Shown here: positions 43,206-59,840 of the stretch, piece after piece
Numbering within the stretch: position 1 is the stretch's first letter
Layout of the letters: each line of letters starts with the position of its first letter
Assembly: GCA_038736355.1 (NCBI GenBank)
Contig: JAVYML010000002.1
Location: forward strand, 186,001 to 250,000
DNA length: 64,000 nt
Direction: 5' to 3'
Origin: Candidatus Hadarchaeales archaeon
GTDB taxonomy: Archaea > Hadarchaeota > Hadarchaeia > Hadarchaeales > WYZ-LMO6
Notes under the pieces: model-generated
Told to the model about the DNA's origin: nothing
The model's input: only the letters and a program-made list of their open reading frames with translations
The model's database searches: none
Program-made: the position numbers and the translations under genes

Positions 43206-43749
43206 CCTTTCCCTCCCCGAGCAATTTCTTGAAACCAGAGCGTTTCACCAACTCCCCCACCTCCTCAAGGGCCCTCGGGAAGGAATGGGTAGTGGGAGGA
43301 TCCCCCGGGAGCCCCAGTTTTCTCCTGAGTTCCCTCACGGCATCGTTGACCGGAACCAAGTGTCCGGTCTTTATCAAATAACCCGCTATCTTGCGATGAT
43401 CCTCTATTGCCCTTCCCTCCTTCACGGCCAGCCTTCTGGCCGCCTTCACCACGTCCACAGGCGCCACGCGCTGTGGACATACTTCCTTGCAGTACGAACA
43501 GGTTGTGCAGTTCCATATCACCTCCGAACCCACTATCCTCTCCTTCAATCCCAACCTAGCAAAGCCCACGAGCTGATGGGGCTTGTACCCAGGCTGGAAC
43601 TTGAAAGCATCGCATCCACTGGTGCACTTCATGCACTGAAAGCAGAGATCGGGCTCCTGGTCCCCAACTTCCCCCTTCAAACCCTTGAGGAACTCTGGAT
43701 CTTCCCCCTGCATGGAAAAGAGATCGAGGAGTCCCCTCTTGGGTCTCAA
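43198..43749 (-). CDS. hdrC: heterodisulfide reductase subunit C-like ferredoxin protein (second copy)
   Basis: The 183-residue HdrC paralogue carries CFQCMKCTSGCDAF and CTTCSYCKEVCPQRVAPVDVV cluster motifs, then a helical tail. TTG 43749 overlaps the preceding acetyltransferase stop (TTGA). It forms the hdrC2-hdrB2-thiolase-DUF35 series. Confidence 0.9.
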   Translation of the reverse strand: MRPKRGLLDLFSMQGEDPEFLKGLKGEVGDQEPDLCFQCMKCTSGCDAFKFQPGYKPHQLVGFARLGLKERIVGSEVIWNCTTCSYCKEVCPQRVAPVDVVKAARRLAVKEGRAIEDHRKIAGYLIKTGHLVPVNDAVRELRRKLGLPGDPPTTHSFPRALEEVGELVKRSGFKKLLGEGKDG

Positions 43750-44225
43750 CCTTCCACCTCCTTTTCATAGGTCTGTACCCACATTCCCTTCTCCTGTTCC
43801 CAGAGTCCCCCCCTCTTCCTGAAACCGAGCTGATCCACGCATTTCTTGCTTGGTAGCTGGTCGGGGAGGATGTTCACAACCACTTTCTTGAAACCCTTCT
43901 CCCTAGCAAACTCCAGCAAATGACGATACATGGCAATGGCCAATCCCTTCCCCCTCCACTCCGGGTCCACCGTCTGATGCTCCCCCAGCACTTCTTCGCC
44001 CAGGGGTACTGCCTTGTACATTCCCACGAGCTTTCCCTCCTTCCGGACACCGAAATAATAAATTCCTTTTTCCATCTCCTCTAAAATCTTTTCCCTAGGC
44101 AAGGTCCTCTTCCTTCTCCATGCCTCCGGGTATTCAAGAGCCCAAGGCCACACCTTTTTCAAAAGTTCTTCTATTTCTGGAGCATCTTGGGGAAGGAGGC
44201 GTTCAACCTTTATCTCCTCTCCCAT
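43746..44225 (-). CDS. GNAT-family N-acetyltransferase
   Basis: The 159-residue protein has a GNAT core with EHQTVDPEWRGKGLAIAMYRHLLEFAREKGFKKV, where the R-G-x-G-L/A segment binds acetyl-CoA, and a C-terminal N-x-x-D-Q-L-P-S-K-K. The acceptor is unknown. It is first in the operon leading to hdrC2 and is divergent from the DUF2117 gene by 38 bp. Confidence 0.85.
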   Translation of the reverse strand: MGEEIKVERLLPQDAPEIEELLKKVWPWALEYPEAWRRKRTLPREKILEEMEKGIYYFGVRKEGKLVGMYKAVPLGEEVLGEHQTVDPEWRGKGLAIAMYRHLLEFAREKGFKKVVVNILPDQLPSKKCVDQLGFRKRGGLWEQEKGMWVQTYEKEVEG

Positions 44226-44263: not shown

Positions 44264-45592
44264 TTGCTCCTCTTCTACGACATAAAACCGGAAGAAGACA
44301 GGCACGGAGCCAGAATACGTCTGGTCAGACTCCTCCGCAAAAAGGGTGGCATCCCCATCCAGCGCTCCACCTGGCTCCTCCCCGCCCTGGACGAAGAACT
44401 CATGCACCTCCTCGAAGAAATCAGGGAAAAAGGCGGAGTGATTTTCCTCTCCGAATGGAAACCCATCCCCCTGCGCGAGATAAAAAAGTCAGGACCCATC
44501 CGCGTGGGTGTGGTGATCCAAGGGACAAGAACCATAGAGGAGGGAATAGCGGAGAGGATCTTGAGGTTGTTGGAAGGGTGGGGCATCAAAACGGAAATCA
44601 AGATCAGTGGCACGATGGGGAGGATGGCCGCCCTGAGTCAGGGATGGGAAGGCGACGGGAAGGAGTTTTCTCTCCCAAGCCAAGCCTTGGAGGAACTGAG
44701 CAAAAAGAATCCCGACTTCCTTCTCCTCCTCACGGGATGCAAGTCCTTGGAAAACGGGGTGTACATGGGGAGGAAAATCGTGGAGAACGCCAAACTGGTA
44801 AGACTCTTGAGGATTCCCTTAACGCAGGTGGAGACGGCCGAAGGTGGGACGGTCATCCACTGGTCGGGCGATCCCTTTTTGAGCGAAAAGCTTGCCAAAT
44901 CCCTCTCCCTCGAGCTGAGGTCCCCCCCACCCTTCACCTCCAGAATTGAAAGAAAGGGGGGAAGGGTCTACCGGAAACTGATGGGGGTGAGGCCTGGAGA
45001 AAAGATCTTGGTGAACGGATACGTGGTGGGTGAGAGCCTCTCCTCTAACGTTACGCTGATAGCTAAGGATGGAAGACTGGAGGAAATCCTGGGGGGAAAG
45101 AAGTATCCCCGCGGTATCCAAAAGGTGGGGAAAATAGATCTCGCCAAAGCAACCGTCAAAACCCTTCGTACCTTGAGGATCCTTGGTCCCAAGGAAGCGA
45201 GAGGGGAAGAAAGAAGGGGGAATAGACTGGTTCTGATAGAAAGGGCCGATACCTCCTTGGAAAAGGCTCAGGGGGCGAGGATGGTGATCACGGTGGGTGA
45301 CGACACTACCTTCATCACCCACGAAATCCTCTCCAAGTTGGGCATACCCGTTCTGGGGCTGATAGATGGTGATGCCGATGGATTGTTGGAGAAATCGGGG
45401 GGGAAGGAAGCCGGGTCGAATCTCTACCTCGTGAGGGTGAGTGCGGGAAAGGATGACGAAGCGGGGAGGATCCTAAAGAAGAGGCTTTTCAAAGAGAAAC
45501 CCTGGATAAGGATGAGGGGAACCCCGGAGGAGGTGAGGAGGAAGGTGGTGAGGATCCTAGGAGAACTGGTCAGGGAGGTAGTGACCCTTTAA
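44264..45592 (+). CDS. DUF2117 protein with an N-terminal Cas2-like segment
   Basis: Residues from about 78 onward match the DUF2117 family of methanogens and relatives (VVIQGTRTIEEGIAERIL, SGTMGRMAALSQ, GGRVYRKLMGVRPGEKILVNGYVVGE, VGDDTTFITHEILSKLGIPVLGLIDGD). The first 70 residues (LLFYDIKPEEDRHGARIRLV, GGIPIQRSTWLLP) resemble the ferredoxin-like fold of Cas2 nucleases, with the YDI strand and Q-x-S. No other cas gene or repeat array is present. TTG 44264 is the likely start. The molecular function is unknown. Confidence 0.65.
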   Translation: MLLFYDIKPEEDRHGARIRLVRLLRKKGGIPIQRSTWLLPALDEELMHLLEEIREKGGVIFLSEWKPIPLREIKKSGPIRVGVVIQGTRTIEEGIAERILRLLEGWGIKTEIKISGTMGRMAALSQGWEGDGKEFSLPSQALEELSKKNPDFLLLLTGCKSLENGVYMGRKIVENAKLVRLLRIPLTQVETAEGGTVIHWSGDPFLSEKLAKSLSLELRSPPPFTSRIERKGGRVYRKLMGVRPGEKILVNGYVVGESLSSNVTLIAKDGRLEEILGGKKYPRGIQKVGKIDLAKATVKTLRTLRILGPKEARGEERRGNRLVLIERADTSLEKAQGARMVITVGDDTTFITHEILSKLGIPVLGLIDGDADGLLEKSGGKEAGSNLYLVRVSAGKDDEAGRILKKRLFKEKPWIRMRGTPEEVRRKVVRILGELVREVVTL

Positions 45593-45654
45593 ACTCGATT
45601 TTCCTCAAAGTGAAACAGACAAACCTTTTTAGGCAAAAGGACGAAGGAAGGCGG

Positions 45655-46809
45655 ATGAAATCCGGAGAACTTCTCCGGGAACTCTACCACTGCCTCCACT
45701 GTCATTTATGTAACTTCGCCGACTGGCATGCCCTCGACGAGTGGCTACCCCTCTGTCCCTCCTATTCCTACTTCGGCTTCGAATCCTTTTCCGCCTCCGG
45801 TAAGATGGAGATCGCCAGGGCCCTTCTCTCTGGAGAGCTGAAGCCCTCCGCCCGCACCCTCCAAATCCTCTTCAGCGATCTGGGGTGCGGTGCCTGCCAC
45901 AGCCAATGCCATGGCCTCACAGGATTGAAGGTGGATCACGTCGAACTCTTTGAAGAGTTGAAGGCCATGCTAGTGGAGCGGGGTTACGGTCCCATGCCCA
46001 AACAAAAATCCTACGCGGAAAGCATCCGAAAGAACCATAACCCCTATGGAGAAAAACACGAAAAGAGGACGGCTTGGTTGGAGAAGGAGCTTCCCTCTCA
46101 GGCCAAGACGGTCTATTTCGTGGGTTGCACCTCCTCCTATCGTCAGAAAGAGATAGCGAGAAACACCATCGAGATCTTGCTGCGTTCGGGAGAGGAGTTT
46201 GCCTTACTCGGGGGGGAAGAATGGTGCTGTGGCTCTCCCCTCCTGCGCACCGGACAGAGGAAGCTGGCCAAGGAGCTGGCGGAACACAACTTGGAGGCCC
46301 TCAGGAAGGCCGGTGCCAAAACCGTGGTCTTTTCCTGTGCCGGCTGCTATAAAACCTTCTCCAAAGACTATCCACGCCTGCTGGGGAGGGAATTGGGGAT
46401 GGAACTCCTCCACACCAGCCAATATTTCCTGAGGATCCTCTCCGGAAGAAAGCTGAAGGGGAACGGCAGGAAGGTCACCTACCACGATCCATGTCACCTG
46501 GGAAGGGGAATGGGGGTCTACGAACCTCCCAGGGAACTCCTGAGGCTCGTCTCCGGAAGTCTAATAGAGATGAAGAGGTCTAGGGAGAATTCCTGGTGCT
46601 GTGGGGCAGGAAGCGGGGTGAAATCGGCCTTTCCCGACTTCGCCCTTTGGTCCGCCTCCAAACGCTTGGAAGAAGCCGAGAAAACGGGTGCGGAAGTGCT
46701 GGTTTCCTCCTGTCCTTTCTGCAAAAGAAACCTTGAAGATGCTGGGAGGAAAAGGGGAGGGATGGAAGTAAAGGATTTGAGCGAACTACTGGCGGAGGCC
46801 CTCGCATGA
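45655..46809 (+). CDS. HdrD/GlcF-type Fe-S oxidoreductase
   Basis: The 384-residue protein combines N-terminal ferredoxin-like motifs (CLHCHLC...LCP and CGACHSQC) with two CCG domains (VGCTSSYRQ...EWCCGSPL...CAGCYKTF; HDPCHLGRG...WCCGAGSG...CPFCKRNLED), the HdrC-HdrB fusion layout of HdrD and glycolate-oxidase GlcF. ATG 45655 follows gaaggaaggcgg. It overlaps the FAD oxidase by ATGA and will form a complex with it, taking electrons from an organic substrate or an Etf. Confidence 0.9.
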   Translation: MKSGELLRELYHCLHCHLCNFADWHALDEWLPLCPSYSYFGFESFSASGKMEIARALLSGELKPSARTLQILFSDLGCGACHSQCHGLTGLKVDHVELFEELKAMLVERGYGPMPKQKSYAESIRKNHNPYGEKHEKRTAWLEKELPSQAKTVYFVGCTSSYRQKEIARNTIEILLRSGEEFALLGGEEWCCGSPLLRTGQRKLAKELAEHNLEALRKAGAKTVVFSCAGCYKTFSKDYPRLLGRELGMELLHTSQYFLRILSGRKLKGNGRKVTYHDPCHLGRGMGVYEPPRELLRLVSGSLIEMKRSRENSWCCGAGSGVKSAFPDFALWSASKRLEEAEKTGAEVLVSSCPFCKRNLEDAGRKRGGMEVKDLSELLAEALA

Positions 46810-48227
46810 GTCCCAAAAGTCTTGAGAAGGAGCTGGCCAAACTCGTGGGGGAAGAAAATGTCTCCTCCGATCCCACCGACCTCATCCCCTTCGAGAGGGA
46901 TGATCAGTTCTTCCTGGTTCCTCCCCATCGACCGGATGTGGTCGTGAGGCCTGGTTCCACCAAGGAGGTGCAGGCCGTTCTTAGACTGGCCCACCGCCTG
47001 AAAATTCCCGTGGTACCCCTGGCCTCTGGGATCAACCGCAAGGGGCTCTGCATCCCCTCAAAGGGAGGAATCCTACTGGACCTCAGAAGAATGAACCGCA
47101 TCCTCGAAATCAACGAGGAGATGATGACGGCCACGATAGAACCAGGAGTGAGCTTCGGACAGCTGGTAAACGAGGTGAAGGGGACTGGACTCAGGGTGAT
47201 CACCCCTTGGGCTCCCTCCACGGCTTCGGTTCTAGCCAACTACATGCTCAGGGGAATCTACGGACCGGCCACCCGCTACGGAACCGACCACCTCATCTCC
47301 ATAGAGGTGGTGCTTCCCGATGGAAGGCTCCTCAGGACGGGCTCCCTCAACACTCCCACCTCCCGTCCCCTCCCCTACTGCAACATCGTGAACGGACCCG
47401 ACCTCTGCAAACTCTTCCAAGCCAACCCCGGAACGATGGGGGTGATCACGAAGGGAACGATAAGACTCTACCCCATGCCGGAGGTGATAAAACCCTTCAT
47501 GGCTTCCTTCCCCAATTACGAAGCCATGGTGAAACCCGCCATCGAGCTCACCGTCAGGGACGTGGTGGAGGCCTGCTGGACGATGACCTTCACTCCCTCT
47601 TCCCTGCGCACCCTCACCAGCGGGGGAAGGCTGGAGGGTCTGGCCGATCTCTTCGAGCAGGATTTCTTCAGCATGTGGCTCTACGTGGCGGGGGATAGGG
47701 AGAGGGTGGAAAGGGATGAGGAAAAGATGAGGAAGATCGTGGAGGAAAACGGTGGGACCTTCCTCCCCTTGCCCCCCGAAACGGAAGAGGAGATGATCAA
47801 GGATGAAATCTGGGAAAGGACGAGCGTGAGGGGCTGGAAGAAGGGGAACCTCTACGGATGCTCCTTCTACGGCGTGATGAAGCTGGCCCCGGAATATTAC
47901 AGGGTATGCAGGGAAATCAGCTTCAAGTACGGTTTCGACGAGTTCCATTATGAAGCCGTTCCCGTGGCCCCCTTCCACGGCCAGCTGGCCTACAACGATC
48001 CCTGCATCCTCTGGGATGCAGGAGATCCCGAACAGGTGAGGAAGATGAGGAGGCTCCACAGGGAAATCATGAGGGCCCTCCTGAAAGTGGGAATTTATGG
48101 CTGGTTCAGGCCTTTCCCAGGCGTGGTGGAGAGTAGAAAGCTAGGAGAATACGGGAGGCTGTGGAGGGCCCTGAAAGACCTCATCGACCCCCATCACATC
48201 ATGAATCCTGGAAAGCCTCCCCTTTAG
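46806..48227 (+). CDS. GlcD-like FAD-linked oxidase/dehydrogenase
   Basis: The 473-residue protein of the VAO/PCMH flavoprotein fold has PDVVVRPGSTKEVQAVLRLA, VPLASGINRKG, IEPGVSFGQLV, YGTDHLISIEVVLPDGRLLRTG and a C-terminal LIDPHHIMNPGK. Relatives oxidise D-lactate, glycolate or aryl alcohols. With the HdrD-like partner it could feed electrons from a hydroxy acid or accept them from EtfAB. Its end overlaps the convergent acyl-CoA synthetase by 29 bp. Confidence 0.88.
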   Translation: MSPKSLEKELAKLVGEENVSSDPTDLIPFERDDQFFLVPPHRPDVVVRPGSTKEVQAVLRLAHRLKIPVVPLASGINRKGLCIPSKGGILLDLRRMNRILEINEEMMTATIEPGVSFGQLVNEVKGTGLRVITPWAPSTASVLANYMLRGIYGPATRYGTDHLISIEVVLPDGRLLRTGSLNTPTSRPLPYCNIVNGPDLCKLFQANPGTMGVITKGTIRLYPMPEVIKPFMASFPNYEAMVKPAIELTVRDVVEACWTMTFTPSSLRTLTSGGRLEGLADLFEQDFFSMWLYVAGDRERVERDEEKMRKIVEENGGTFLPLPPETEEEMIKDEIWERTSVRGWKKGNLYGCSFYGVMKLAPEYYRVCREISFKYGFDEFHYEAVPVAPFHGQLAYNDPCILWDAGDPEQVRKMRRLHREIMRALLKVGIYGWFRPFPGVVESRKLGEYGRLWRALKDLIDPHHIMNPGKPPL

Positions 48228-51385: not shown

Positions 51386-52231
51386 TCAGCGCAAGGGGGA
51401 GGGAGGACGGGGAGTTTCAACCTTCACCGCCCTCTCGCTTTTCCCCACCTTTTCCTCCTGCATCCTCAGCACCCTTTCCCCAAGCTCCGTCAGGGCATAA
51501 ACGGGGATGCTCTTTCCGAAGGAGGCCCTGGCCGAGGGACCTATCTTCTCCCTCACCACCTTCGAAGCACAGGCATGAACCATGTCCGCCTTCAGAAGGT
51601 ATGGAACTAGCTCCTCCCCTATTCCCGTCGTATGGATCACGATGATCAAAAGGAGAGCCCCCTTCTCCCTCTCCACCCTCCTCATTTCCTCTATGAGGGT
51701 GGCCTCCGTACCCATCACCGTCACCCCTATTTTACGATAACCCAACGAAAGGGCCTTCTTCACCCCTTCCACTTGGTCCATCTTTGCCGTGGAGGGATCT
51801 AGGACCACTGCCCCCTTTTCCTCCAGTCTCCGTATCACCTCGGGAAGGGGACTCGTCTCGAGCAGGGCGCTCATGGCCATTCCTATGCCCTGAACGAGCT
51901 CGGGTTTATTCGTGATCACGGTCCCAGCCCCATCGCAGACCGTCACCGTGGTTTCTATTATCCCCCTCTCCAAAGCCGTGGCCAAACACTCCGAGGCCCC
52001 AAAGCCCACACCCAACACCTCCAGCTCCAAGACCCTCCGGGGGGTGGAAAGCCCCAAGAGCTCCATCCTCCTCTCCATGGATTCCCTCACCCCCTCCCTA
52101 CTCCTTTCCCCCTTTCCGCTGAGGGCCTCGAGCACGGGACAGAAGCGAGTGAGGGGTTCCCCGACGGAAACTATTTTTCCTCCCTCCACCACCACCCTAG
52201 CCTTGGCCACTTCCCAAACGTGCCTGTCCAT
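51386..52231 (-). CDS. mmp8: methanogenesis marker protein 8 (DUF2099)
   Basis: The 281-residue protein matches marker 8: VWEVAKARVVVEGGKIVSVGEPLTRFCP, LGVGFGASECLATALERGIIE, VCDGAGTVITNKPELVQGIGMAMSALLETSP, KIGVTVMGTEA and VHACASKVVREKIG. Its biochemical role is not established, but it co-occurs with Mcr. ATG 52231 lies 35 bp inside the end of mcrC. Confidence 0.92.
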   Translation of the reverse strand: MDRHVWEVAKARVVVEGGKIVSVGEPLTRFCPVLEALSGKGERSREGVRESMERRMELLGLSTPRRVLELEVLGVGFGASECLATALERGIIETTVTVCDGAGTVITNKPELVQGIGMAMSALLETSPLPEVIRRLEEKGAVVLDPSTAKMDQVEGVKKALSLGYRKIGVTVMGTEATLIEEMRRVEREKGALLLIIVIHTTGIGEELVPYLLKADMVHACASKVVREKIGPSARASFGKSIPVYALTELGERVLRMQEEKVGKSERAVKVETPRPPSPLR

Positions 52232-52838
52232 CCTTTAGCCTCTCCATCCAATACTTCACTTTTCCTATGATCTCGTCCAGTTTCTCCTGAGAGCAAGTCT
52301 GTCCTCTTATCACTCCCGTCACCACCTCCACCACCATCCCTTTCGTCTCAGGAACTTCTGGCTCATATTCCCTCGTTCTTATCCCAGCCTCTGCGAAATC
52401 CTTCATGGTGACGGGTGCCTGTGAAACCACCACGGCAGGAAGGGCAACGTTTCGGAGGAAGACCTTGACCTTGGGTATGAAGTGCCTCGGAACGTTTCCC
52501 ACATGGATGAGGGCCAGCTTGTGCCTGCGTATCTGTTCCTCCTCCTCTGGAAAGAGGTTGGAATAGGCAGCACCCACCACTTGATCCATGAGTTCTTCTG
52601 GAGGACCTATTCCCATCTTGAGCACGAGCACGCTGACGTTGAAGCCTGCCTCCCTCAAACCATAGGTGATCTCACACACGGGCTTGGTGATGTGCCTAGG
52701 ACTGGGGCCCATCGAGAGAACGATGATGTCCGGTTCAGCGGCCTCCGCGAGCGTCCCCCTTTGGGCCAGACCCCCTCCCAGTCCCAAACCAGCCGTCTCC
52801 CTGCAGTCCACCACCCTGCACTTCCTTCCCAGTCTCAC
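52197..52838 (-). CDS. mcrC: methyl-coenzyme M reductase operon protein C
   Basis: McrC belongs to the ATP-dependent activation machinery that reduces the nickel of F430 in Mcr. From GTG 52838 (GTGA overlap with mcrD) the 213-residue product starts MRLGRKCRVVDCRETAGLGLGGG and contains AQRGTLAEAAEPDIIVLSMG, RHITKPVCEITYGLREAG, HKLALIHVGNV and ALPAVVVSQAPVTMKDFA. Longer frames run into the mcrD reading region and are not conserved. Confidence 0.95.
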   Translation of the reverse strand: MRLGRKCRVVDCRETAGLGLGGGLAQRGTLAEAAEPDIIVLSMGPSPRHITKPVCEITYGLREAGFNVSVLVLKMGIGPPEELMDQVVGAAYSNLFPEEEEQIRRHKLALIHVGNVPRHFIPKVKVFLRNVALPAVVVSQAPVTMKDFAEAGIRTREYEPEVPETKGMVVEVVTGVIRGQTCSQEKLDEIIGKVKYWMERLKDGQARLGSGQG

Positions 52839-53209
52839 TCCTCTCCTCCCTCCAAAAAACAAGTGTCCATTCTGAGCACCAATCTCCTCCCGCTCAGGGG
52901 TTCCTTTTCCATGGTGAACCTCCCCACTTTGAGCTCGAATCCGTAGGGGAAGACCCGCTTGCAAAGCTCCCTGATGGCCTCCAGCTCCTCCAAACTCTCC
53001 ATTTCCACCCAGAACTTCCCCACCTGGATGCGGAGGATGATCTTCTTCCCCCCAACTTCTATGTACCTCCGGTAGTAAACGGAGGGACCATGCATCATCA
53101 CCCTCAAGACTCCCTTTATTTCCCTCAGTCCGTTGAGGAATTTGGAAACGGTCTCATCGCTGGGCAGTCTGTAGGGGAAAATCTCAACCTCTGGCTTCTG
53201 GGCCTCCAC
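52835..53209 (-). CDS. mcrD: methyl-coenzyme M reductase operon protein D
   Basis: The 124-residue protein matches McrD: EVEIFPYRLPSDETVSKFLNGL, IKGVLRVMMHGPSVYYRRYIEVGGKKIILRIQVGKFWVEME, and ELCKRVFPYGFELKVGRFTMEK. McrD associates loosely with Mcr assembly intermediates in methanogens. GTG 53209 lies 3 bp after the mmp7 stop. Normally mcrD is inside mcrBDCGA; here it is joined to mcrC and marker genes instead. Confidence 0.9.
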   Translation of the reverse strand: MEAQKPEVEIFPYRLPSDETVSKFLNGLREIKGVLRVMMHGPSVYYRRYIEVGGKKIILRIQVGKFWVEMESLEELEAIRELCKRVFPYGFELKVGRFTMEKEPLSGRRLVLRMDTCFLEGGEE

Positions 53210-53212
53210 CTC

Positions 53213-54163
53213 TTAAACTTCCATCCCTCCGCTTATAGCCCTGACTCCTTTCGGAGAGAGCTCCAATCTCGAAAGTGGGAGGAGGTCCACCAGGATATAA
53301 TCTCTCATCAAAGAGCGACGGATTTCGGCTATCTCTCCCAGCCTATAGCCCGCCACCTCCATCTCCCTCAACACTCCCGCGAACCTGGAGTAGGGAAGCT
53401 TGACCCTCACCCCCTTTAGCCTCGGGGTGACGGGGAGGGGGGCTCCGCATTTCCTGATCTCCTCCAGCCTGTTCTCTATCTCTCCCTTCAAAACCAGGGG
53501 TGAGAGAAGGGGAGGATCCAACGAAATTTTTTTTCTCCTTTCCTCAAGCGCTTTCTCCACCGCCCTTGCCACCTCGTCCAGTTTCCCTATCTCCGTGAAG
53601 GTCCTAGTCCTGTACGGAAGCCTTCCCATTCCTGAAATGTAGGAGAAGGCGTAGGGAAGGGAGGGAAGCTCCGGACCACCCGTGACGATCACGGGAACGG
53701 AAAGATCCTTGAAGAGCTTCCACTTGTATTCCTTCAAGCAGTGCTCGAAATTCCCCAGCACGAAGACCGCCGCATCGTGTTCCTCTATCAGTTTCTTCTC
53801 CTCCACACCCAGCTGACATGTCCTCTGTCCCGGTCCTCTGGCCAGTCCTATCATGTTGGTCTTGGCACCCTCCCTGCGCAGGTACTCCGCCACATCGCAG
53901 AGGGGATGGGGAAGGTGGTGGCGGGTGATGGTGGGGGAAACCACCGCGATCTCAGAACCTATCAGGGGAAGCTTTTTCAGCTTCCCCTGCAGGTCCCTCA
54001 CCAAATCCTCCACCACCCCCACATCCTCGTGGGGAACGAAGAAGGTGATGGTGACCTCCGTTCCTATCGTCCTGGTCTGTAAGACGGAGCCCCCCAAGTC
54101 CTCCACCAGCTCCAGGAGCTCCTGATGCCTGTAACCTCCACCCTCAAAAAGAAAGCCGGGCAA
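53213..54163 (-). CDS. mmp7: methanogenesis marker protein 7 (Mcr activation complex)
   Basis: Mmp7 is an Mcr-activation protein. The conserved body begins FLFEGGGYRHQELLELVEDLGG and has GSEIAVVSPTITRHHLPHPLC, AKTNMIGLARGPGQRTCQLG, EEHDAAVFVLGNFEHC, VPVIVTGGPELPSLP and MRDYILVDLLPLSRLELS. I start it at TTG 54163, which follows GGAGG at 8 nt and lies 2 bp after the mmp17 stop, giving 316 residues; upstream in-frame sequence is not family-like. Confidence 0.92.
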   Translation of the reverse strand: MPGFLFEGGGYRHQELLELVEDLGGSVLQTRTIGTEVTITFFVPHEDVGVVEDLVRDLQGKLKKLPLIGSEIAVVSPTITRHHLPHPLCDVAEYLRREGAKTNMIGLARGPGQRTCQLGVEEKKLIEEHDAAVFVLGNFEHCLKEYKWKLFKDLSVPVIVTGGPELPSLPYAFSYISGMGRLPYRTRTFTEIGKLDEVARAVEKALEERRKKISLDPPLLSPLVLKGEIENRLEEIRKCGAPLPVTPRLKGVRVKLPYSRFAGVLREMEVAGYRLGEIAEIRRSLMRDYILVDLLPLSRLELSPKGVRAISGGMEV

Positions 54164-54165
54164 CT

Positions 54166-54843
54166 CTACAACCTCCAGGGCATGGCCCCATCCTTGAACT
54201 TGGGAAGGATTTCGGCCGCCTCTACCTTTCTCCTTATCCCCTCCATTTTCTCCGGGGGAATGGGGGAGGGTGGCTTTCTCAGGGCCTCCTTCACCTCCTC
54301 GACCCATCCATCGGGAATGGGATTTTCAGAAGCCAAGATGAGGAGGGAGTTCCCTTCCCTCTCCGCATAGCGTACTCTGAAGCCCACGGGTATCACCCTC
54401 TCCAGGGCATCCATGATCCTCTCCCTCATCCTCTCCTGCGGATGGGAGACCACCAACCTCTCGAGCTCCTTCGCCGGCATCGCTCCAGCCGGTACCACCA
54501 CTTCCCATCTATCCAGCTGCTCCAGCGATCCCCCAAACTTTTCCCTCAGGAGCTTGGCCAGGAAAGGGGCCTGCCCCTCATCCAGAAGCACCACATGGAT
54601 TCCGTCCGCGGCTTCCTGCACCCTGGCACAGTCCATTACCCTTATGGGGGGAAGGGGGGGACCTAGAAGGGCCCTGACGGCTACGAGGGGTTTTCTCATG
54701 TCCACCAGGATCCTCAGCTCCTCCAGCGCCCCTCCAAGGGAAAGCTCCGAAAGGGCGTGCTCCGCTATCACCTTGAGCATGAGAACCCCGTAACCGTACT
54801 GGTAGGAGGGATCCAGGGATTCGACGAAAACCTTCTCGCTCAC
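54166..54843 (-). CDS. mmp17: methanogenesis marker protein 17 (Mcr activation complex)
   Basis: The 225-residue protein resembles Mmp17: VFVESLDPSYQYGYGVLMLKVIAEHAL, LEELRILVDMRKPLVAVRALLG, VMDCARVQEAADG and VVVPAGAMPAKELERLVVSH. Mmp17 has been found in the Mcr activation complex with McrC, Mmp3, Mmp7 and A2. The GTG start overlaps the mmp15 stop (GTGA). Confidence 0.88.
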   Translation of the reverse strand: MSEKVFVESLDPSYQYGYGVLMLKVIAEHALSELSLGGALEELRILVDMRKPLVAVRALLGPPLPPIRVMDCARVQEAADGIHVVLLDEGQAPFLAKLLREKFGGSLEQLDRWEVVVPAGAMPAKELERLVVSHPQERMRERIMDALERVIPVGFRVRYAEREGNSLLILASENPIPDGWVEEVKEALRKPPSPIPPEKMEGIRRKVEAAEILPKFKDGAMPWRL

Positions 54844-56060
54844 TCCCTCACCCCAGAAGCCAAGAGGGCTGCACCCACCGCACCCCCGAACTGCGGAAGG
54901 GGAGGAACCCTTATGTCCACCCTCAGGATTTCTCTCATCTCCTTCACCAAACCATCCACCAGGGCCGTTCCACCCACCTCTATCACGGGCAACCTGAGGT
55001 CTATCTCCTGGAGTTGCGTCTCGAAGACCTGCCTAGCCACGCTCCTGCAGGCCGCTGCGGCTATGTCCTCTCTGCTGTTCCCGCCCGCCAGTCCCGCCAC
55101 CAGATCTTGGATCCCGAAGATGGCACAGTAGCTGTCCATCCTTACCTTTTCGGGATCACCCTTCAGGGCCAGCTTGCCCAAAGTGGGAACGTCCACTCCC
55201 AGTCTCGCAGCGGCTAATTCCAGGAACCTCCCGGAAGAACCCGCACATACCCCTCCCATCGTGAAGCTATCGGGAATGCCGTTGAGGAGGGTCATCACCT
55301 TGTTGTCCAACCCTCCTATGTCTATCACCGTGGCTTCCCCCCTCTGGACCCCCGATAGGAAGGCCGTACCCTTCGAAACCACCGTAAGCTCTTCCTGCAC
55401 CAGATCCGCCTTAAGGACCTCTCCGAGGAGAAACCTCCCATATCCCGTGACCCCAACCGCTTCTATCTCCTCCTCCTTTACCCCGGCCTGCGAAAGCGCC
55501 TCCCTTTTCACCCTCTCGGCCGCTTCCACCACCTCCGTGGTGGGCGTCCAACCCGTGCCTATCACTTCGTTGTCCCTCATCACCACGGCCTTAGTGGTGG
55601 AGGAACCGGAGTCTATCCCGAGGGTGAGCCCCTCCTGCTTTTCCCTGGCCAGGAGGGTCTTCTTTTCGGCCAAGGTAACAAGGGCCTCCATCCTGATGAG
55701 GAGTTCCCCAAGCTTGGGCTTCTCGGTGAAGGAATACATCACCAACGGAAGGTTCGTGCGTTCCTGCAGGTACCTCCTCACCGCGTGCTTGACGAGCACA
55801 CCCTCCGCACACCTGAAGCAGGTGAGGATGAGGGCAGCATCGGCCGGAACACCGTCGGCCAACGCCTTGGCCCTGGCTATCATGAGTTTGAGGTTGGGGC
55901 TCTGTACCTCCAATCCCATTTCCTCCACTGCCCTATCGATGCCCTCGAGGTCGACCTCGGGGAAAAAGAGCTCCGCGCCCACCATCCTTGCCGCCCTTTC
56001 CAGCATGGCCTGAACACCGCTCCACTCTGTACCACAGGAGAGCTGTGCTATCCTCGTCAT
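54840..56060 (-). CDS. mmp15: methanogenesis marker protein 15 (BcrAD/BadFG-type ATPase)
   Basis: The 406-residue protein has a short N-terminal domain (IAQLSCGTEWSGVQAMLERA, LTCFRCAEG) and an ASKHA ATPase domain (LTLGIDSGSSTTKAVVM, GVTGYGRFLL, VIDIGGLDNKVMTL, MGGVCAGSSGRFLELAAARLG, IEVGGTALVDGL). Related ATPases drive low-potential electron injection into benzoyl-CoA reductase. Analogy suggests ATP-driven reduction linked to Mcr; this is not proven. It overlaps mmp5 (ATGA) and mmp17 (GTGA). Confidence 0.93.
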   Translation of the reverse strand: MTRIAQLSCGTEWSGVQAMLERAARMVGAELFFPEVDLEGIDRAVEEMGLEVQSPNLKLMIARAKALADGVPADAALILTCFRCAEGVLVKHAVRRYLQERTNLPLVMYSFTEKPKLGELLIRMEALVTLAEKKTLLAREKQEGLTLGIDSGSSTTKAVVMRDNEVIGTGWTPTTEVVEAAERVKREALSQAGVKEEEIEAVGVTGYGRFLLGEVLKADLVQEELTVVSKGTAFLSGVQRGEATVIDIGGLDNKVMTLLNGIPDSFTMGGVCAGSSGRFLELAAARLGVDVPTLGKLALKGDPEKVRMDSYCAIFGIQDLVAGLAGGNSREDIAAAACRSVARQVFETQLQEIDLRLPVIEVGGTALVDGLVKEMREILRVDIRVPPLPQFGGAVGAALLASGVRE

Positions 56061-56494
56061 CCCTTCAGCCCCCTCAAGAACTCCGCGATCTTTCTCACCA
56101 TCTCCCTGGCTTCTTCCTTCGTTGAAGGGTACTCCACTTCCAGCATGGGAATCCCCCTCCTCTTCAGCATGTAAAGGACTTGGAGACTGGCCCTGGCGCA
56201 GCCAGAACAGCCAAAGGCATAATCCGGATTCTTCACCACCACTGCTGCCTCCGCCTGCTCCACGAGAGGACCCAGAACCCCCATCCTCCCCCTAACCCCC
56301 GAGGGGGCCTCTATGGATACGTACCTCAGTCCCCTCACCAGATCCTCCTCCGTGAGGTTGAGGGGAGGATTATCCAACCCAGGATCCCTCACCCTTTCTC
56401 CTATTTCCCTCCCGAGCGAGAGGGGGGTGTGACCGAATCTCTCCACCAAGTCGGAGAGGATGAGACTGTTGGGTGGAAAGATGAAGATTTTCAC
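56057..56494 (-). CDS. mmp5: methanogenesis marker protein 5
   Basis: From GTG 56494, which overlaps the mmp6 stop as GTGA, the 145-residue product begins MKIFIFPPNSLILSDLVERFGH and contains YVSIEAPSGVRGRMGVLGPLV and VVKNPDYAFGCSGCARASLQVLYMLKRRGIP, the conserved signature of marker 5 with a C-x2-C pair. Function is unknown beyond co-occurrence with Mcr. The final helix ends 4 bp into mmp15. Confidence 0.92.
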   Translation of the reverse strand: MKIFIFPPNSLILSDLVERFGHTPLSLGREIGERVRDPGLDNPPLNLTEEDLVRGLRYVSIEAPSGVRGRMGVLGPLVEQAEAAVVVKNPDYAFGCSGCARASLQVLYMLKRRGIPMLEVEYPSTKEEAREMVRKIAEFLRGLKG

Positions 56495-56919
56495 GGAAAT
56501 TCCTCCACCATCACTTCCCTGAGTTCCTTCAGGGGGAGCTTTTTCCTCTTTTCCTTCTCCCTTACCTCCAGCTTCCCCTCCTCGAGTTCCCTCAGGGCCT
56601 CCTCTATGAGGGGAAGTTTTTCCACCTCGTAATCCAAGAAAGAAAAGCCCATCCTGGGGCTCCCTCCCCTGGAGGCCCTGCATATCCTGGGGTCTCCGGG
56701 AGGATAACCCCTTATCTTGGAGAAGATCCCATACCTATCCAGCTCCCTCGCACTCTTCAGGGCCTCTTCCAGCACTTCCTCCTCACCCTCCAACACCAGA
56801 CCAAAACATGTTTCCTTCATCTTGGCCCTAACCCCCTTCTCCATCAAATACCTGCATAGAACCTCTGGAGTAAGCCCTGAGGTGGGGGAAATCACCAGGA
56901 TGCGTCCCAACCTCTTCAC
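56491..56919 (-). CDS. mmp6: methanogenesis marker protein 6
   Basis: The 142-residue protein has LGRILVISPTSGLTPEVLCRYLMEKG, MKETCFGLVLEGEEEVLEEAL and SKIRGYPPGDPRICRASRGG, all typical of marker 6, and an acidic-basic C-terminal helix. Its role is not known in detail. GTG 56919 overlaps the mmp3 stop, and its own stop overlaps mmp5. Confidence 0.92.
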   Translation of the reverse strand: MKRLGRILVISPTSGLTPEVLCRYLMEKGVRAKMKETCFGLVLEGEEEVLEEALKSARELDRYGIFSKIRGYPPGDPRICRASRGGSPRMGFSFLDYEVEKLPLIEEALRELEEGKLEVREKEKRKKLPLKELREVMVEEFP

Positions 56920-58442
56920 CTTTCTTCCATCACGTATATCACATCACCCACTTCTCTGTTTTTTAGACCCTCCAGACCCTCAACCACCTCTCCTATCAGG
57001 TTGGTGGCTTCTAAAGCCTCACCGGTGGGTCCAAAGGTCTTGCTGGACTTCAGCCTGACCCCCAGCAAACCCGTAAGCCTGCGGAAAGAGTTGGTCACGC
57101 CCAGCGCTCCCTCCTTCACCTCTTCCTCTGGCACGTTTTCCGCAGGAAGGGATTTGAAAGTCTTACCCCTCACGCTCGAGAGGAGAAGGATCTCGTCCGT
57201 GAGGGCCACTACGCTCAGCTTCCCCACGCTGGATGTCACCATTTCGGCCACGGCCCTGAAATGGGCCACGCTCTTGGGTGCCCTATCCTCCCAAAGCCTC
57301 ACCTTTATGACGGCGCTGGGATCCACTCCGAGAGTCGCTACCATTCCCTCCTCCCTGACCTCCAGCGTGAGCTCCGGTCTCTGCTCTATGATCACGGCTT
57401 CATCCCTCTCGTCACCCACCCTCACATGCCTTATCCCCTCCTCCTGCAGAAAACGGGAGGCCTCCCCTTGCGTCATTCCCACCACCACCATCCTCTTCGG
57501 AACCGTTTTGATGAGCAGCCTCTCACCCTTCAGCGTGTAATCCAACATCTCCACCCCCATCTCCACCCTGCCCACCACGCTGTGGTGGAGGGAGGGAGGC
57601 GCATCCTTGCGATAAAGATAGATGGATCCCGTCCTCCTCCCTGCGTTCCTCACGGTAACCGTTCCCCTGAACCTCATGGTGGTGTTCTCCCTGGGAAGGT
57701 TTTCAACGGGGATTCCGTCCATCGAAAGGAAAGCCGATCCCATCTGACTTATCCTCCAAACCCCTTCCCTGGTGAGACCGAGGAGGTGCTCGGCACAGAC
57801 CTTCGCTTGGGGGAAGAGGACTACACGCAGGAAGGTGAAGATCTCCATCCCCTCTTCTACCCCTATCCTGGCTGGATTACCCTTGACCTGTTCCCACTTT
57901 TCCTTGAGCCTCGGACGGATTCCCAGCAAACGGTCTCCACGTCCCAGCCTTTCGAGCAGATGTCCTCCCCTCACCACCCTACCCAAGAGAGGTGCCTCCT
58001 GGGGCACTCCGTAAACCCCTTCATGGACCTCCCTGCTGAATCCCAGGAAAGCTTGGGAGGGATCAAAGCCTCCAAAACCCAGAAAGATCTCCCCTTCTTC
58101 GAACCTCCTTTTCATCCTGCTGGGTTTCAGCCCCTTGCCCCTGAGGTCGAAGGGCCCAAAAACCGCCACTTGTCTAGTCTCCCACCACATCCCTCCCTCA
58201 GAGAAAGAACGGAAATTTTCCTTCCACCAGGGAAGGATCCCTTCCTCTACTCCAACCGTAATTATCCCCCTCGTGGTCTCGAGCTCATATTCCCTCGTTT
58301 CCTCCCTCTCCTCCAGCCTCCTCATGACCAAGATCTTGCAATCCTCTCTGTAAGGTGCACCCAAACTCTCCAAGGCCTTCAGAACCGAAAGATGGGGGGA
58401 AACTTCCTTTTCCTCCCCATTCACAAAAATCCTGACCATCAT
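56916..58442 (-). CDS. mmp3: methanogenesis marker protein 3 (UPF0288; Mcr activation complex)
   Basis: The 508-residue protein has an N-terminal ubiquitin-like segment (MVRIFVNGEEKEVSPHLSVLKAL), a central domain with EIFLGFGGFDPSQAFLGFSREVHEGVYG, AGRRTGSIYLYRKDAPPSLHHSVVGRVEMG and a C-terminal EVVEGLEGLKNREVGDVIYVME. It matches marker 3, reported as a component of the methanogen Mcr activation complex. Tandem ATGs at 58442/58439 overlap the stop of the radical SAM gene. Confidence 0.94.
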   Translation of the reverse strand: MMVRIFVNGEEKEVSPHLSVLKALESLGAPYREDCKILVMRRLEEREETREYELETTRGIITVGVEEGILPWWKENFRSFSEGGMWWETRQVAVFGPFDLRGKGLKPSRMKRRFEEGEIFLGFGGFDPSQAFLGFSREVHEGVYGVPQEAPLLGRVVRGGHLLERLGRGDRLLGIRPRLKEKWEQVKGNPARIGVEEGMEIFTFLRVVLFPQAKVCAEHLLGLTREGVWRISQMGSAFLSMDGIPVENLPRENTTMRFRGTVTVRNAGRRTGSIYLYRKDAPPSLHHSVVGRVEMGVEMLDYTLKGERLLIKTVPKRMVVVGMTQGEASRFLQEEGIRHVRVGDERDEAVIIEQRPELTLEVREEGMVATLGVDPSAVIKVRLWEDRAPKSVAHFRAVAEMVTSSVGKLSVVALTDEILLLSSVRGKTFKSLPAENVPEEEVKEGALGVTNSFRRLTGLLGVRLKSSKTFGPTGEALEATNLIGEVVEGLEGLKNREVGDVIYVMEER

Positions 58443-59821
58443 TTTCCTCTACTTTTTTCCCTAAAAACGGTTCCCGAAAATCCCAGGAGCCTTTTGAGAT
58501 CCCTAGTGTTGGCCCTTACCTCCTCCCCCTGCTTCTTCACTTCTTCCACCAACCTGTGATAGAACCCATCGGTGAGGAGGATGGGTCTCGAACGGGCGCA
58601 GGAGGCGGTGAGCATGAGATCCAGGGCCCTAGCCTCCGCCACCGTCAAACCCAACCTCCCCCACTTTCCCTCCTCCTTCTGGAAAACGGGATTTTCCTCC
58701 TCCGGAAGCCTGCACACTTCCTCCGCAAGGGGAGTTCCGGGAAGGGGGTCAGCTAAGCTGATGGTATACTCGTCGAGCATGAGTTCTTCCACCATCTCTT
58801 TCGTCTCCAAGTAGTCCTCCTCTGTCTCACCGGGATAACCCACGATGAAAGCCCCACCCACCTCCAGCCCCACCTCCCTAGCCTTCTCCACACCTTCCCA
58901 GATTTGCTCTACCGTAATTCCCTTCCTCATCTTCCTGAGCATCCTCGTACTCCCCGACTCTATTCCAAAGATCAGAAAACCTATCGTGTACCTCTTCAGG
59001 GCTTCCAACACCTCCCGGTCTACCTCATCCACCCTGAGGTCTGGAACGGAAACGTTCTTCGGACCCAAGAGCTTGCTCACCCTTTCCAGGAGATCTATAA
59101 AGTCCCCTTCCCCATCTCTGCCGTAATGGGTAGAAGTACCACCGAAAAAGGAAATCCTCCGTACTCCCTTTTCCATGAAGGCTTTCACTTCCTTCTCTAT
59201 CTCTTCCGGCGGCCTGGACCTTACCCTGCGACCGAAGAAGCAGGGGACTTGGCAAAAACCACATCCCCCCAGACAACCCCTGTGAGTTTCGAGGTAAACT
59301 TGGGCTCCACGTATGTCCTGCTTCCAAACATCGGAAGGTATTTCCGGTAGGGGTCTTCCGGAGAGGTCTGGAGGTCGGCGGGGAGGGGTCTTGACCTCTT
59401 CACCTTCTCTGAGAAAAGCCACCCCCTCCACCCCTTCCAGCTCTCCCCTTTCCAAGAGGACCCCGAAAACCTCAGGAGCCGTCTCTTCGCCTTCCCCCAC
59501 CACCACCGCATCCACCTCGGGAAGGGACCTCAAGACCAGCTCTGGTACCTGGGTGATGGGTCCCCCTATCACCACCTTTTTTCCACCCTTCTTCAGGGCA
59601 GGGACTAATCGAGCGGCTTCCCTGAGATGGGAGAGGGAGGTGAGACTGAGTCCCACTACCTCTCCCTCCAGTCCCTCCCAACCCCTCACCACCTTGACCC
59701 CATAACCCCTTTCCCTGAGGATCCCTCCTATGAGCATGGCACCGTAAGAATAGACTTCTGGAGAAGCCACCGTGACCTTCCTCACATCGAGAGAATGGGG
59801 GAGGCTTCCTTTTAGTTTCAT
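58439..59821 (-). CDS. mgmA: cobalamin-binding radical SAM protein, MgmA-like (Mcr glutamine C-methyltransferase type)
   Basis: From ATG 59821 the 460-residue protein has an N-terminal B12-binding domain (VASPEVYSYGAMLIGGILRERGY, GGPITQVPELV, VVVGEGEETAPEVF) and a radical SAM domain with Cys183, Cys187, Cys190 (RGCLGGCGFC), plus IFGIESGSTRMLRKMRKG and GYPGETEEDY. This domain order differs from Mmp10 and fits the B12-radical SAM enzyme that C-methylates a glutamine of McrA. GTG 59785 is an alternative, shorter start. It heads the marker operon. Substrate assignment is inferred from context. Confidence 0.78.
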   Translation of the reverse strand: MKLKGSLPHSLDVRKVTVASPEVYSYGAMLIGGILRERGYGVKVVRGWEGLEGEVVGLSLTSLSHLREAARLVPALKKGGKKVVIGGPITQVPELVLRSLPEVDAVVVGEGEETAPEVFGVLLERGELEGVEGVAFLREGEEVKTPPRRPPDLSGRPLPEIPSDVWKQDIRGAQVYLETHRGCLGGCGFCQVPCFFGRRVRSRPPEEIEKEVKAFMEKGVRRISFFGGTSTHYGRDGEGDFIDLLERVSKLLGPKNVSVPDLRVDEVDREVLEALKRYTIGFLIFGIESGSTRMLRKMRKGITVEQIWEGVEKAREVGLEVGGAFIVGYPGETEEDYLETKEMVEELMLDEYTISLADPLPGTPLAEEVCRLPEEENPVFQKEEGKWGRLGLTVAEARALDLMLTASCARSRPILLTDGFYHRLVEEVKKQGEEVRANTRDLKRLLGFSGTVFREKSRGK

Positions 59822-59840
59822 CGAGGCTTTAATAGGGAGG

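Follow-up and report, generated by a model that had tools for sequence, protein, structure and literature searches.

How does a member of the methanogen-associated DUF2117 family come to begin with a stretch that recalls the CRISPR protein Cas2, and what might such a stretch do there? The question is raised by a gene in the window, the whole 64-kb stretch of DNA analysed here, which belongs to a 1.27-Mb draft genome (95.8% complete) of a Candidatus Hadarchaeales archaeon. The literature we searched yielded neither experiments on any DUF2117 protein nor a known function for the family, and searches on DUF2117/PF09890 and on Cas2-like domains found no named Cas2–DUF2117 fusion; the family itself turned up in a single paper, which concerns Sinorhizobium. 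According to the accessible part of PMC9635834, 155 archaeal DUFs have been surveyed for co-occurrence with methane metabolism, and the supplementary data of that work may already tabulate a link between DUF2117 and methanogenesis.

Architecture and distribution of the fusion

The gene is a 442-codon open frame that opens with a TTG start preceded by a purine-rich stretch. Its parts are as follows, with the domain borders of the DUF2117 body being our own.

44264..45592, + strand: Cas2-like + DUF2117 fusion gene, 442 aa, TTG start, stop included
44264..44488, + strand: predicted Cas2/VapD-type ferredoxin-like domain (N-domain), residues 1–75
44276..44281, + strand: Tyr5-Asp6, putative counterpart of the Cas2 Tyr-Asp (Cas2 residues as given in the accessible part of PMC9510766), invariant in 14/14 rows of the N-domain alignment
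44312..44338, + strand: basic helix Arg17–Arg25, with R17, R19, R22, and R25 invariant in 14/14 rows
44498..44938, + strand: DUF2117 domain A, Rossmann-like, residues 79–225 (borders from the model)
44945..45163, + strand: DUF2117 domain B, β-rich, residues 228–300
45215..45589, + strand: DUF2117 domain C with GDDTT/DGDxDG, residues 318–442, absent from the short forms described below

The PF09890 (DUF2117) profile matches residues 83–412 over all of its 325 positions (E = 1.6e-73, 248 bits against a cut-off of 25), and the invariant DUF2117 motifs GTMGR, GDDTT, and DGDxDG are also present. By curated cut-off over the whole profile, the product classifies as a full member of the family, which bears out the DUF2117 body proposed in the first-pass annotation. 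For residues 71–218, Foldseek and VIA returned generic Rossmann-like matches only (ribose-binding proteins, B12 domains of aminomutases, and NAD kinase; best Z 8.7). An NAD kinase assignment for domain C is weak (PF01513 at 0.013, below its cut-off; the NCBIfam NAD kinase model at 0.0045 in 2/14 sequences), and we make no enzymatic claim.

A scan of genome contigs found 297 relatives, the best 80 of which were compared. Three of these 80 carry the N-terminal extension: two from Hadarchaeota (L026 and L027) and one from Bathyarchaeota BA2 (L028). In the other 77, mostly from methanogens and ANME, the protein begins at the DUF2117 core or close to it, whereas the window protein has ∼75 residues more; one of the 77 (L086) lies on a contig that begins at the core, so that the state of its extension cannot be judged. 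A profile of the extension found no match inside the DUF2117 gene of any of these 77 relatives. The Cas2-type extension is an addition to DUF2117, and the opposite view, that residues 1–75 are integral to the fold in all members, proved false. A second DUF2117 gene, without the extension, is present in the same genome as the window (G000:C1:345780).

Strong matches to the N-domain occur in 3 of the 31 Hadarchaeota genomes searched (G000, which is the window's own, G001, and G003). G002, from the same family as the window's genome, holds DUF2117 pieces, and the N-domain was not found in this draft; a weak PF09890 match in G006 (4.2e-4), located in an ORF that by eye resembles a P-type ATPase, was discarded. 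In BA2's phylum (Thermoproteota in current usage), DUF2117 was found in 27 of 398 genomes and the N-domain in 20 of 398 at E < 1e-20, leaving out of the count three further genomes with weak matches (3.1e-4 to 8.6e-3). No credible match was obtained among 392 genomes of the phylum of the GoM-Arc1 archaeon, where seven matches at E 0.002–0.005 were taken as chance, or among 151 genomes of a methanogen phylum (that of G029), with one match at 0.0022. In genomes with more than 14 candidates, the first pass of these searches scored at most 14 and could miss a divergent copy.

Within the 20 N-domain genomes of BA2's phylum, BA2 itself has the full-length fusion and the other 19 have short proteins. 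These short forms are open frames of 302–370 codons that comprise the Cas2-like domain followed by DUF2117 domains A and B. Their N-domain is 39–56% identical to that of the fusion (ten compared), and domains A and B are common to both, but unlike the window fusion they are without domain C and the motifs of domain A. Their DUF2117 match stops no later than profile position 231 of 325, ahead of the last, GDDTT-bearing domain; in the ten that were aligned, the GGTMGR-type motif of domain A is missing as well. A divergent CBS-domain gene adjoins the short-form gene in 9/10 loci. We know of no family name for these proteins. The fusion is not a one-off: the family to which it belongs extends over Hadarchaeota, Bathyarchaeota BA2, and another 19 genomes of the phylum of BA2, and represents a known DUF2117 family with a new, conserved domain architecture.

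We calculated a tree from DUF2117 domains A and B (77 rows, ten of them of odd amino-acid make-up). The short forms fall on one side of a branch with support 100/100, and the four long fusions on one side of a second branch (99/94). Short and long fusions are adjacent, but the branch that unites them is weak (83/49), so that a single fusion event for both is possible but not shown. A set of 17 proteins with support 100/100 includes the unfused Hadarchaeota paralogue together with 13 full-length members from BA2's phylum. A record labelled “Bacteroidales” (L056) groups with Methanococci and is probably a mis-binned contig.

Cas2/VapD likeness of the N-domain

Searched alone, residues 1–78 give sub-threshold matches to PaaX_M (“Cas2-like”; 5.7e-4), CRISPR_Cas2 (0.014), TIGR01573 cas2 (0.02), and ChrB_N (0.022), and the curated Cas2 cut-offs are missed (PF09827, 16.7 against 23.8 bits; TIGR01573, 15.1 against 24.5 bits). 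Over the 14 rows of the N-domain alignment, sub-threshold Pfam matches are to ChrB_N in 12, PaaX_M in seven, Cas2 in six, and HTH_22 in five. PaaX_M (PF20803) and ChrB_N (PF20229), the commonest of these, are parts of regulators in which the partner domains differ from DUF2117.

In profile–profile alignment, the 14-row N-domain profile matches one built from 13 true Cas2 proteins over 35 columns (residues 1–40; probability 65.6, E = 5.8e-5, score 28.4), compared with a maximum score of 15.9 in 100 column shuffles and 7.7 for the reversed profile. The two families are linked by Cas2-like proteins that stand alone in other Hadarchaeota and that match the N-domain with a probability of 98.2 and Cas2 with one of 94.6; the YDI, R.R helix, and Q.S.[FW] motifs of the N-domain and Cas2 align in order. 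When PDB sequences were searched with the 14-row profile, Cas2 did not appear, and the best match, at E 0.14, was unrelated.

AlphaFold predicts the N-domain alone as β-α-β-β-α-β with a mean pLDDT of 89.7 (b1, 2–6; a1, 16–26; b2, 30–33; b3, 36–38; a2, 44–55; b4, 59–63). The C-terminal strand b5 is absent from this 80-residue model, which has a helix at 70–75 and no strand after residue 63. Foldseek against the PDB ranks VapD (6zn8) first and the Cas2 ribonuclease SSO8090 (3exc) second, with Cas2 structures also at the top, although E-values are modest (5.0e-3 and up, none < 1e-3). In VIA-align, Cas2 chains reach Z 6.3–7.8 (2ivy: Z 7.0, rmsd 2.7, 65 residues aligned), and VapD chains are not among the 50 matches listed, despite first place in Foldseek. 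The top match there is an uncharacterised protein (Z 8.1), and because domains of BipA (7.4), LepA (6.8), and EF-G (6.6) score like Cas2, the fold alone is indecisive.

Profile alignment, predicted structure, and Foldseek nevertheless agree on the Cas2-type ferredoxin-like fold first proposed for the initial ∼70 residues. With Cas2 (PF09827, TIGR01573), the N-domain shares the predicted β-α-β-β-α-β fold and the three motifs; unlike Cas2, it is fused to DUF2117, stands outside a cas operon, lacks b5 in the model, and scores below the cut-offs. VapD toxins (6zn8, 3ui3) have a ferredoxin-like RNase fold, and the likeness of the modeled N-domain to them is one of fold only (best Foldseek E-value 5.0e-3, 16% identity to 6zn8). 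Given the sub-cut-off scores, the PDB sequence search without Cas2, and the missing b5, the N-domain is best described, from sequence and model, as Cas2/VapD-like rather than Cas2 proper. The profile check of residues 1–75 suggested earlier thus succeeds between profiles and fails at every curated Cas2 cut-off, and structure prediction returns the expected order of elements short of b5.

Twenty-one of the 80 columns of the N-domain alignment are invariant in all 14 rows, including Y5, D6, I7, R17, R19, R22, R25, S35, W37, E64, and W65. In the Cas2 protein SSO1404, six residues are cited as important for RNase activity in the accessible part of PMC9510766 (Tyr9, Asp10, Arg17, Arg19, Arg31, and Phe37). 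By our own correspondence, drawn by motif order from an alignment with other Cas2 proteins, four of these (Tyr9, Asp10, Arg17, and Arg19) have identical counterparts in 14/14 N-domain rows, whereas Phe37 is replaced by Trp and Arg31 by Pro or Gln. The same source, as far as accessible, describes strand b5 as used by Cas2 for dimerisation; because b5 is absent from our model, the dimer interface may be unable to build an active site of the Cas2 kind.

The N-domain of the window protein is 75, 59, and 60% identical to those of three other genomes, and in each of these comparisons it has a lower dN than the remainder of the protein. Against L026, dN is 0.18 for the N-domain, 0.20 for domains A and B, and 0.24 for domain C, at dS values of 0.86–1.78 (0.86 for the N-domain). 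Between the long fusions and ten short forms, mean identity is 46% in the N-domain, 25% in domain A, and 35% in domain B. With the highest identity and the lowest dN, the added domain is the most conserved part of the protein. This pattern shows that, in two archaeal phyla, strong selection has maintained a Cas2-type domain outside a CRISPR context.

Genomic setting

The fusion gene is followed by genes for redox proteins and, 6–14 kb away, by an island of mcr accessory genes (51386–59872).

43746..44225, − strand: GNAT acetyltransferase, divergent; a similar ORF (by eye) is likewise divergent in L027, whereas in the BA2 locus it lies at a distance of 6.5 kb
45610..46809, + strand: Fer4/CCG iron-sulphur protein (HdrD/TfrB-like), next gene; homologue at the same place in L026, L027, and L028 (BA2)
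46806..48227, + strand: FAD-linked oxidase (GlcD-like); similar ORF at the same place in L027 and L028 (BA2)
51386..52231, − strand: methanogenesis marker 8 (TIGR03275, 8.6e-80)
52197..52964, − strand: mcrC (TIGR03264, 3e-76)
52964..53212, − strand: mcrD-like stretch (TIGR03260, 4.5e-15, 55.9 bits, below the cut-off of 100)
53213..54307, − strand: methanogenesis marker 7 (TIGR03274, 6.5e-110)
54166..54843, − strand: methanogenesis marker 17 (TIGR03291, 1.2e-28)
54840..56060, − strand: methanogenesis marker 15 (TIGR03286, 3.1e-192)
56057..56683, − strand: methanogenesis marker 5 (TIGR03271, 2e-61)
56916..58442, − strand: Mmp3 (TIGR03268, 8.5e-128)
58439..59872, − strand: Mcr glutamine C-methyltransferase (B12/radical SAM; TIGR04014, 1.1e-163)

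The window thus reads mmp8-mcrC-(mcrD-like)-mmp7-mmp17-mmp15-mmp5-mmp3-Mcr Gln methylase. In BA2, mmp8-mcrC-(mcrD-like)-mmp7-mmp17-mmp15-mmp5-mmp6-mmp3 lies 3–10 kb from the fusion, and mcrA is found ∼16 kb from it on the same contig. We compared 55 DUF2117 loci, identifying one member per gene cluster by profile and the rest by BLAST linkage. An mmp2-type gene follows DUF2117 in nine of the 55 (six from Methanobacteriaceae or its genera, one “Euryarchaeota,” and two without a taxon name), and in five of these nine mmp3-mmp6-mmp5-mmp15-mmp17 come next. At seven of the 55 loci, DUF2117 stands directly after a DUF2098 gene (Methanothrix, Methanotrichaceae, Methanosarcinales, and ANME-2).

In the accessible part of PMC12176620, DUF2098, Mmp3, Mmp7, Mmp17, and A2 co-purify with McrC in the MCR activation complex; that of PMC9584954 reports the same partners without DUF2098. 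The genes for McrC, Mmp3, Mmp7, and Mmp17 are in the window's island, and DUF2098 neighbours DUF2117 elsewhere. Neither source, so far as its text is accessible, names DUF2117 among the proteins co-purified with McrC. DUF2117 is linked to known mcr accessory genes.

The distribution of DUF2117 also follows McrA. Among the 398 genomes of BA2's phylum, DUF2117 occurs in 27, McrA in 28, and both in 25, and all 20 N-domain genomes have McrA (Fisher test, 3.8e-34 for DUF2117 and 1.2e-27 for the N-domain, not corrected for kinship). In a relatives set of 61 genomes, DUF2117 scores over the cut-off in ten and McrA occurs in nine, all within those ten. Exceptions, in draft genomes, are McrA without DUF2117 in G224, G271, and G301 and DUF2117 without McrA in G242, G283, and G001. 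The association with Mcr lineages noted in the first-pass annotation is therefore upheld both by these counts (25/27 and 20/20) and by the accessory island beside the gene. The Cas2-type domain appears dispensable for Mcr as such, because it is absent from the classical methanogen and ANME members examined and from 8 of the 28 McrA genomes of BA2's phylum. Neighbourhood and co-occurrence are no demonstration of function for DUF2117.

In the window's family and in BA2, McrA matches the canonical model weakly, at ∼9e-21 to 2e-25 compared with 1e-63 or better for most other matches, as expected of alkyl-CoM reductases. Acr is restricted to one Hadarchaeota family in the accessible part of PMC10811742, which also describes Ca. 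Cerberiarchaeum oleivorans, a hexadecane-oxidising enrichment archaeon. The fusion-bearing L027 (“Hadesarchaea archaeon S4B3_HD70”) is probably this organism.

A search of the 64-kb window for CRISPR-like arrays found none, and no cas genes are among the neighbours of the fusion gene. The early statement that the window holds neither array nor cas gene stands as far as checked, but a Cas4-Cas1-Csa1-Cas2 module (C2:182645-185454) ends only 0.55 kb left of the window start. This true Cas1/Cas2 pair lies 45 kb from the fusion gene, and the genome's Cas2 is separate from the fused domain, which is neither a CRISPR component nor the Cas2 of this genome.

Possible roles of the fused domain

We consider it reasonably probable that the protein is an accessory factor for Mcr/Acr maturation or activation, in which DUF2117 acts with the McrC/Mmp machinery and carries a conserved Cas2/VapD-type module. 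Judging from linkage and distribution, the DUF2117 body would work with the McrC/Mmp activation machinery encoded nearby. In one paralogue line, which Acr-bearing Hadarchaeota share with BA2 and with many genomes of its phylum that carry Mcr, a small Cas2/VapD-type ferredoxin domain would have been fused N-terminally; it is now the most conserved part. The module would present either a nucleic-acid- or nucleotide-binding face (Tyr-Asp plus the R.R..R..R helix) or a docking surface. More tentatively, the module may use its Tyr-Asp/Arg face to bind, or cut, RNA or some other polyphosphate, and could in this way tie the factor to mcr/acr expression rather than serve as a docking tag only. The polar residues that are conserved speak for a ligand; with b5 lost and the short forms degenerate, docking is at least equally open.

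That the N-domain is a dimerisation or docking module only, joining two DUF2117 proteins or DUF2117 to the McrC/Mmp complex, with Tyr-Asp/Arg as structural leftovers, has in our estimate somewhat less than an even chance. Escherichia coli Cas2 bridges Cas1 dimers non-catalytically (PMC9510766, accessible part), and the N-domain persists in short forms that have lost domain C and the GGTMGR-type motif, which is what a scaffold subunit would be expected to show. A full-length DUF2117 is present in 12 of the 19 short-form genomes, but none was seen in the other seven, a poor fit to a simple partner-subunit picture. Conservation, moreover, peaks at Tyr-Asp and the basic helix and not only at hydrophobic positions, and the strand that Cas2 usually employs for dimerisation is missing in the model.

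A regulator that binds or cleaves RNA in the manner of VapD and Cas2 RNases, acting on mcr/acr or other mRNA and coupling expression to maturation state, seems to us rather unlikely as the role of the N-domain. The two leading Foldseek matches, the retention of Y5, D6, R17, and R19, and the regulator-associated relatives PaaX_M and ChrB_N are consistent with it, and RNA binding or cleavage is possible given these residues, but R31 is not retained and b5 is missing. The stronger version, in which methane/alkane metabolism has domesticated a Cas2/VapD-type ribonuclease that binds or cleaves specific RNA, perhaps mcr/acr transcripts, so as to couple enzyme synthesis to activation state, is doubtful.

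We regard it as improbable that the N-domain is an unrelated ferredoxin-like domain with a chance resemblance and no Cas2 ancestry. Such a view would account for the single-sequence scores below all curated cut-offs, the PDB profile search without Cas2, and the similar VIA Z of EF-G, LepA, BipA, and an uncharacterised protein at the top, but the alignment with the Cas2 profile beats all 100 shuffles, stand-alone Hadarchaeota proteins link both families, and the motifs follow in order. Although the genomes are mostly MAGs, two genes joined by assembly error, or a functionless passenger fusion, can practically be dismissed, because the same junction recurs in three Hadarchaeota genomes and BA2, a further 19 genomes have a related junction, and the region spanning it shows a dN that is low relative to dS.

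Mcr/Acr maturation is a central unsolved problem of methane/alkane metabolism, and DUF2117, as a probable accessory factor, is likely one of its missing parts. This hypothesis is testable, as Methanococcus maripaludis is tractable for DUF2117. The extra Cas2-type domain suggests that the production of Mcr/Acr includes a nucleic-acid or docking step not suspected before and, if the domesticated ribonuclease were true, the synthesis of these very abundant enzymes would be linked to the state of their activation machinery.

Stand-alone relatives of the fused domain and their repeats

The nearest relatives found for the fused Cas2/VapD-type domain are stand-alone Cas2-like genes of Hadarchaeota. 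These genes (∼75 amino acids) are present in Hadarchaeota genomes without McrA matches, at loci L021, L022, L024, and L025 (longer stretches L218, L215, L220, and L221) and also in L217, L219, and L222. Four of them are surrounded by copies of a 16-nucleotide palindrome-like repeat, the sequence of which varies between genomes.

Repeat-bearing regions of stand-alone Cas2-like genes
L022, 1096-1960: TGTCCCATATGGGACA, 7 copies
L024, 1372-1741: TGACACACGTRTGTCA-type, 5 copies
L025, 1440-1938: TGACACACGTRTGTCA-type, 8 copies
L021, 1379-1712: TGTCACACCTGTGACA-type, 3 copies

Among the eight longer stretches counted, recurring perfect palindromes occur only in L215 (eight) and L221 (two). The 16-nucleotide repeats could represent an operator-like or mobile repeat system.

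A cas module beside the window

Genes for Cas4, Cas1, Csa1, and Cas2 lie left of window position 1, their end separated from it by 0.55 kb; no CRISPR array was found in L209, the stretch that holds them, or in the window.

L209, 4645-7454 (G000:C2:182645-185454): Cas4, Cas1, Csa1, and Cas2 genes

Copies and neighbors of DUF2117

The window's genome (G000) and its relatives G002 and G003 each possess two McrA-type matches, along with two or more DUF2117 genes or fragments. In the tree of DUF2117 domains A and B (77 rows), one DUF2117 paralogue of these genomes groups with full-length proteins from the phylum of BA2, the Bathyarchaeota genome with a full-length fusion. In that phylum, a divergent CBS-domain gene neighbors the short Cas2-DUF2117 gene at nine of ten loci (L136-L140, L142, and L145-L147). 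The tree also places a methanogen-type DUF2117 from a record labeled Bacteroidales (L056, JASGMZ010000053.1) with Methanococci, and this contig is probably mis-binned.

In Methanothrix, Methanotrichaceae, Methanosarcinales, and ANME-2 loci (L053, L065, L073, L075, L084, L092, and L098), a DUF2098 gene is located directly upstream of DUF2117, as assigned by profile for L053 and via BLAST linkage for the other six. The MCR activation complex includes DUF2098 among its subunits (PMC12176620).
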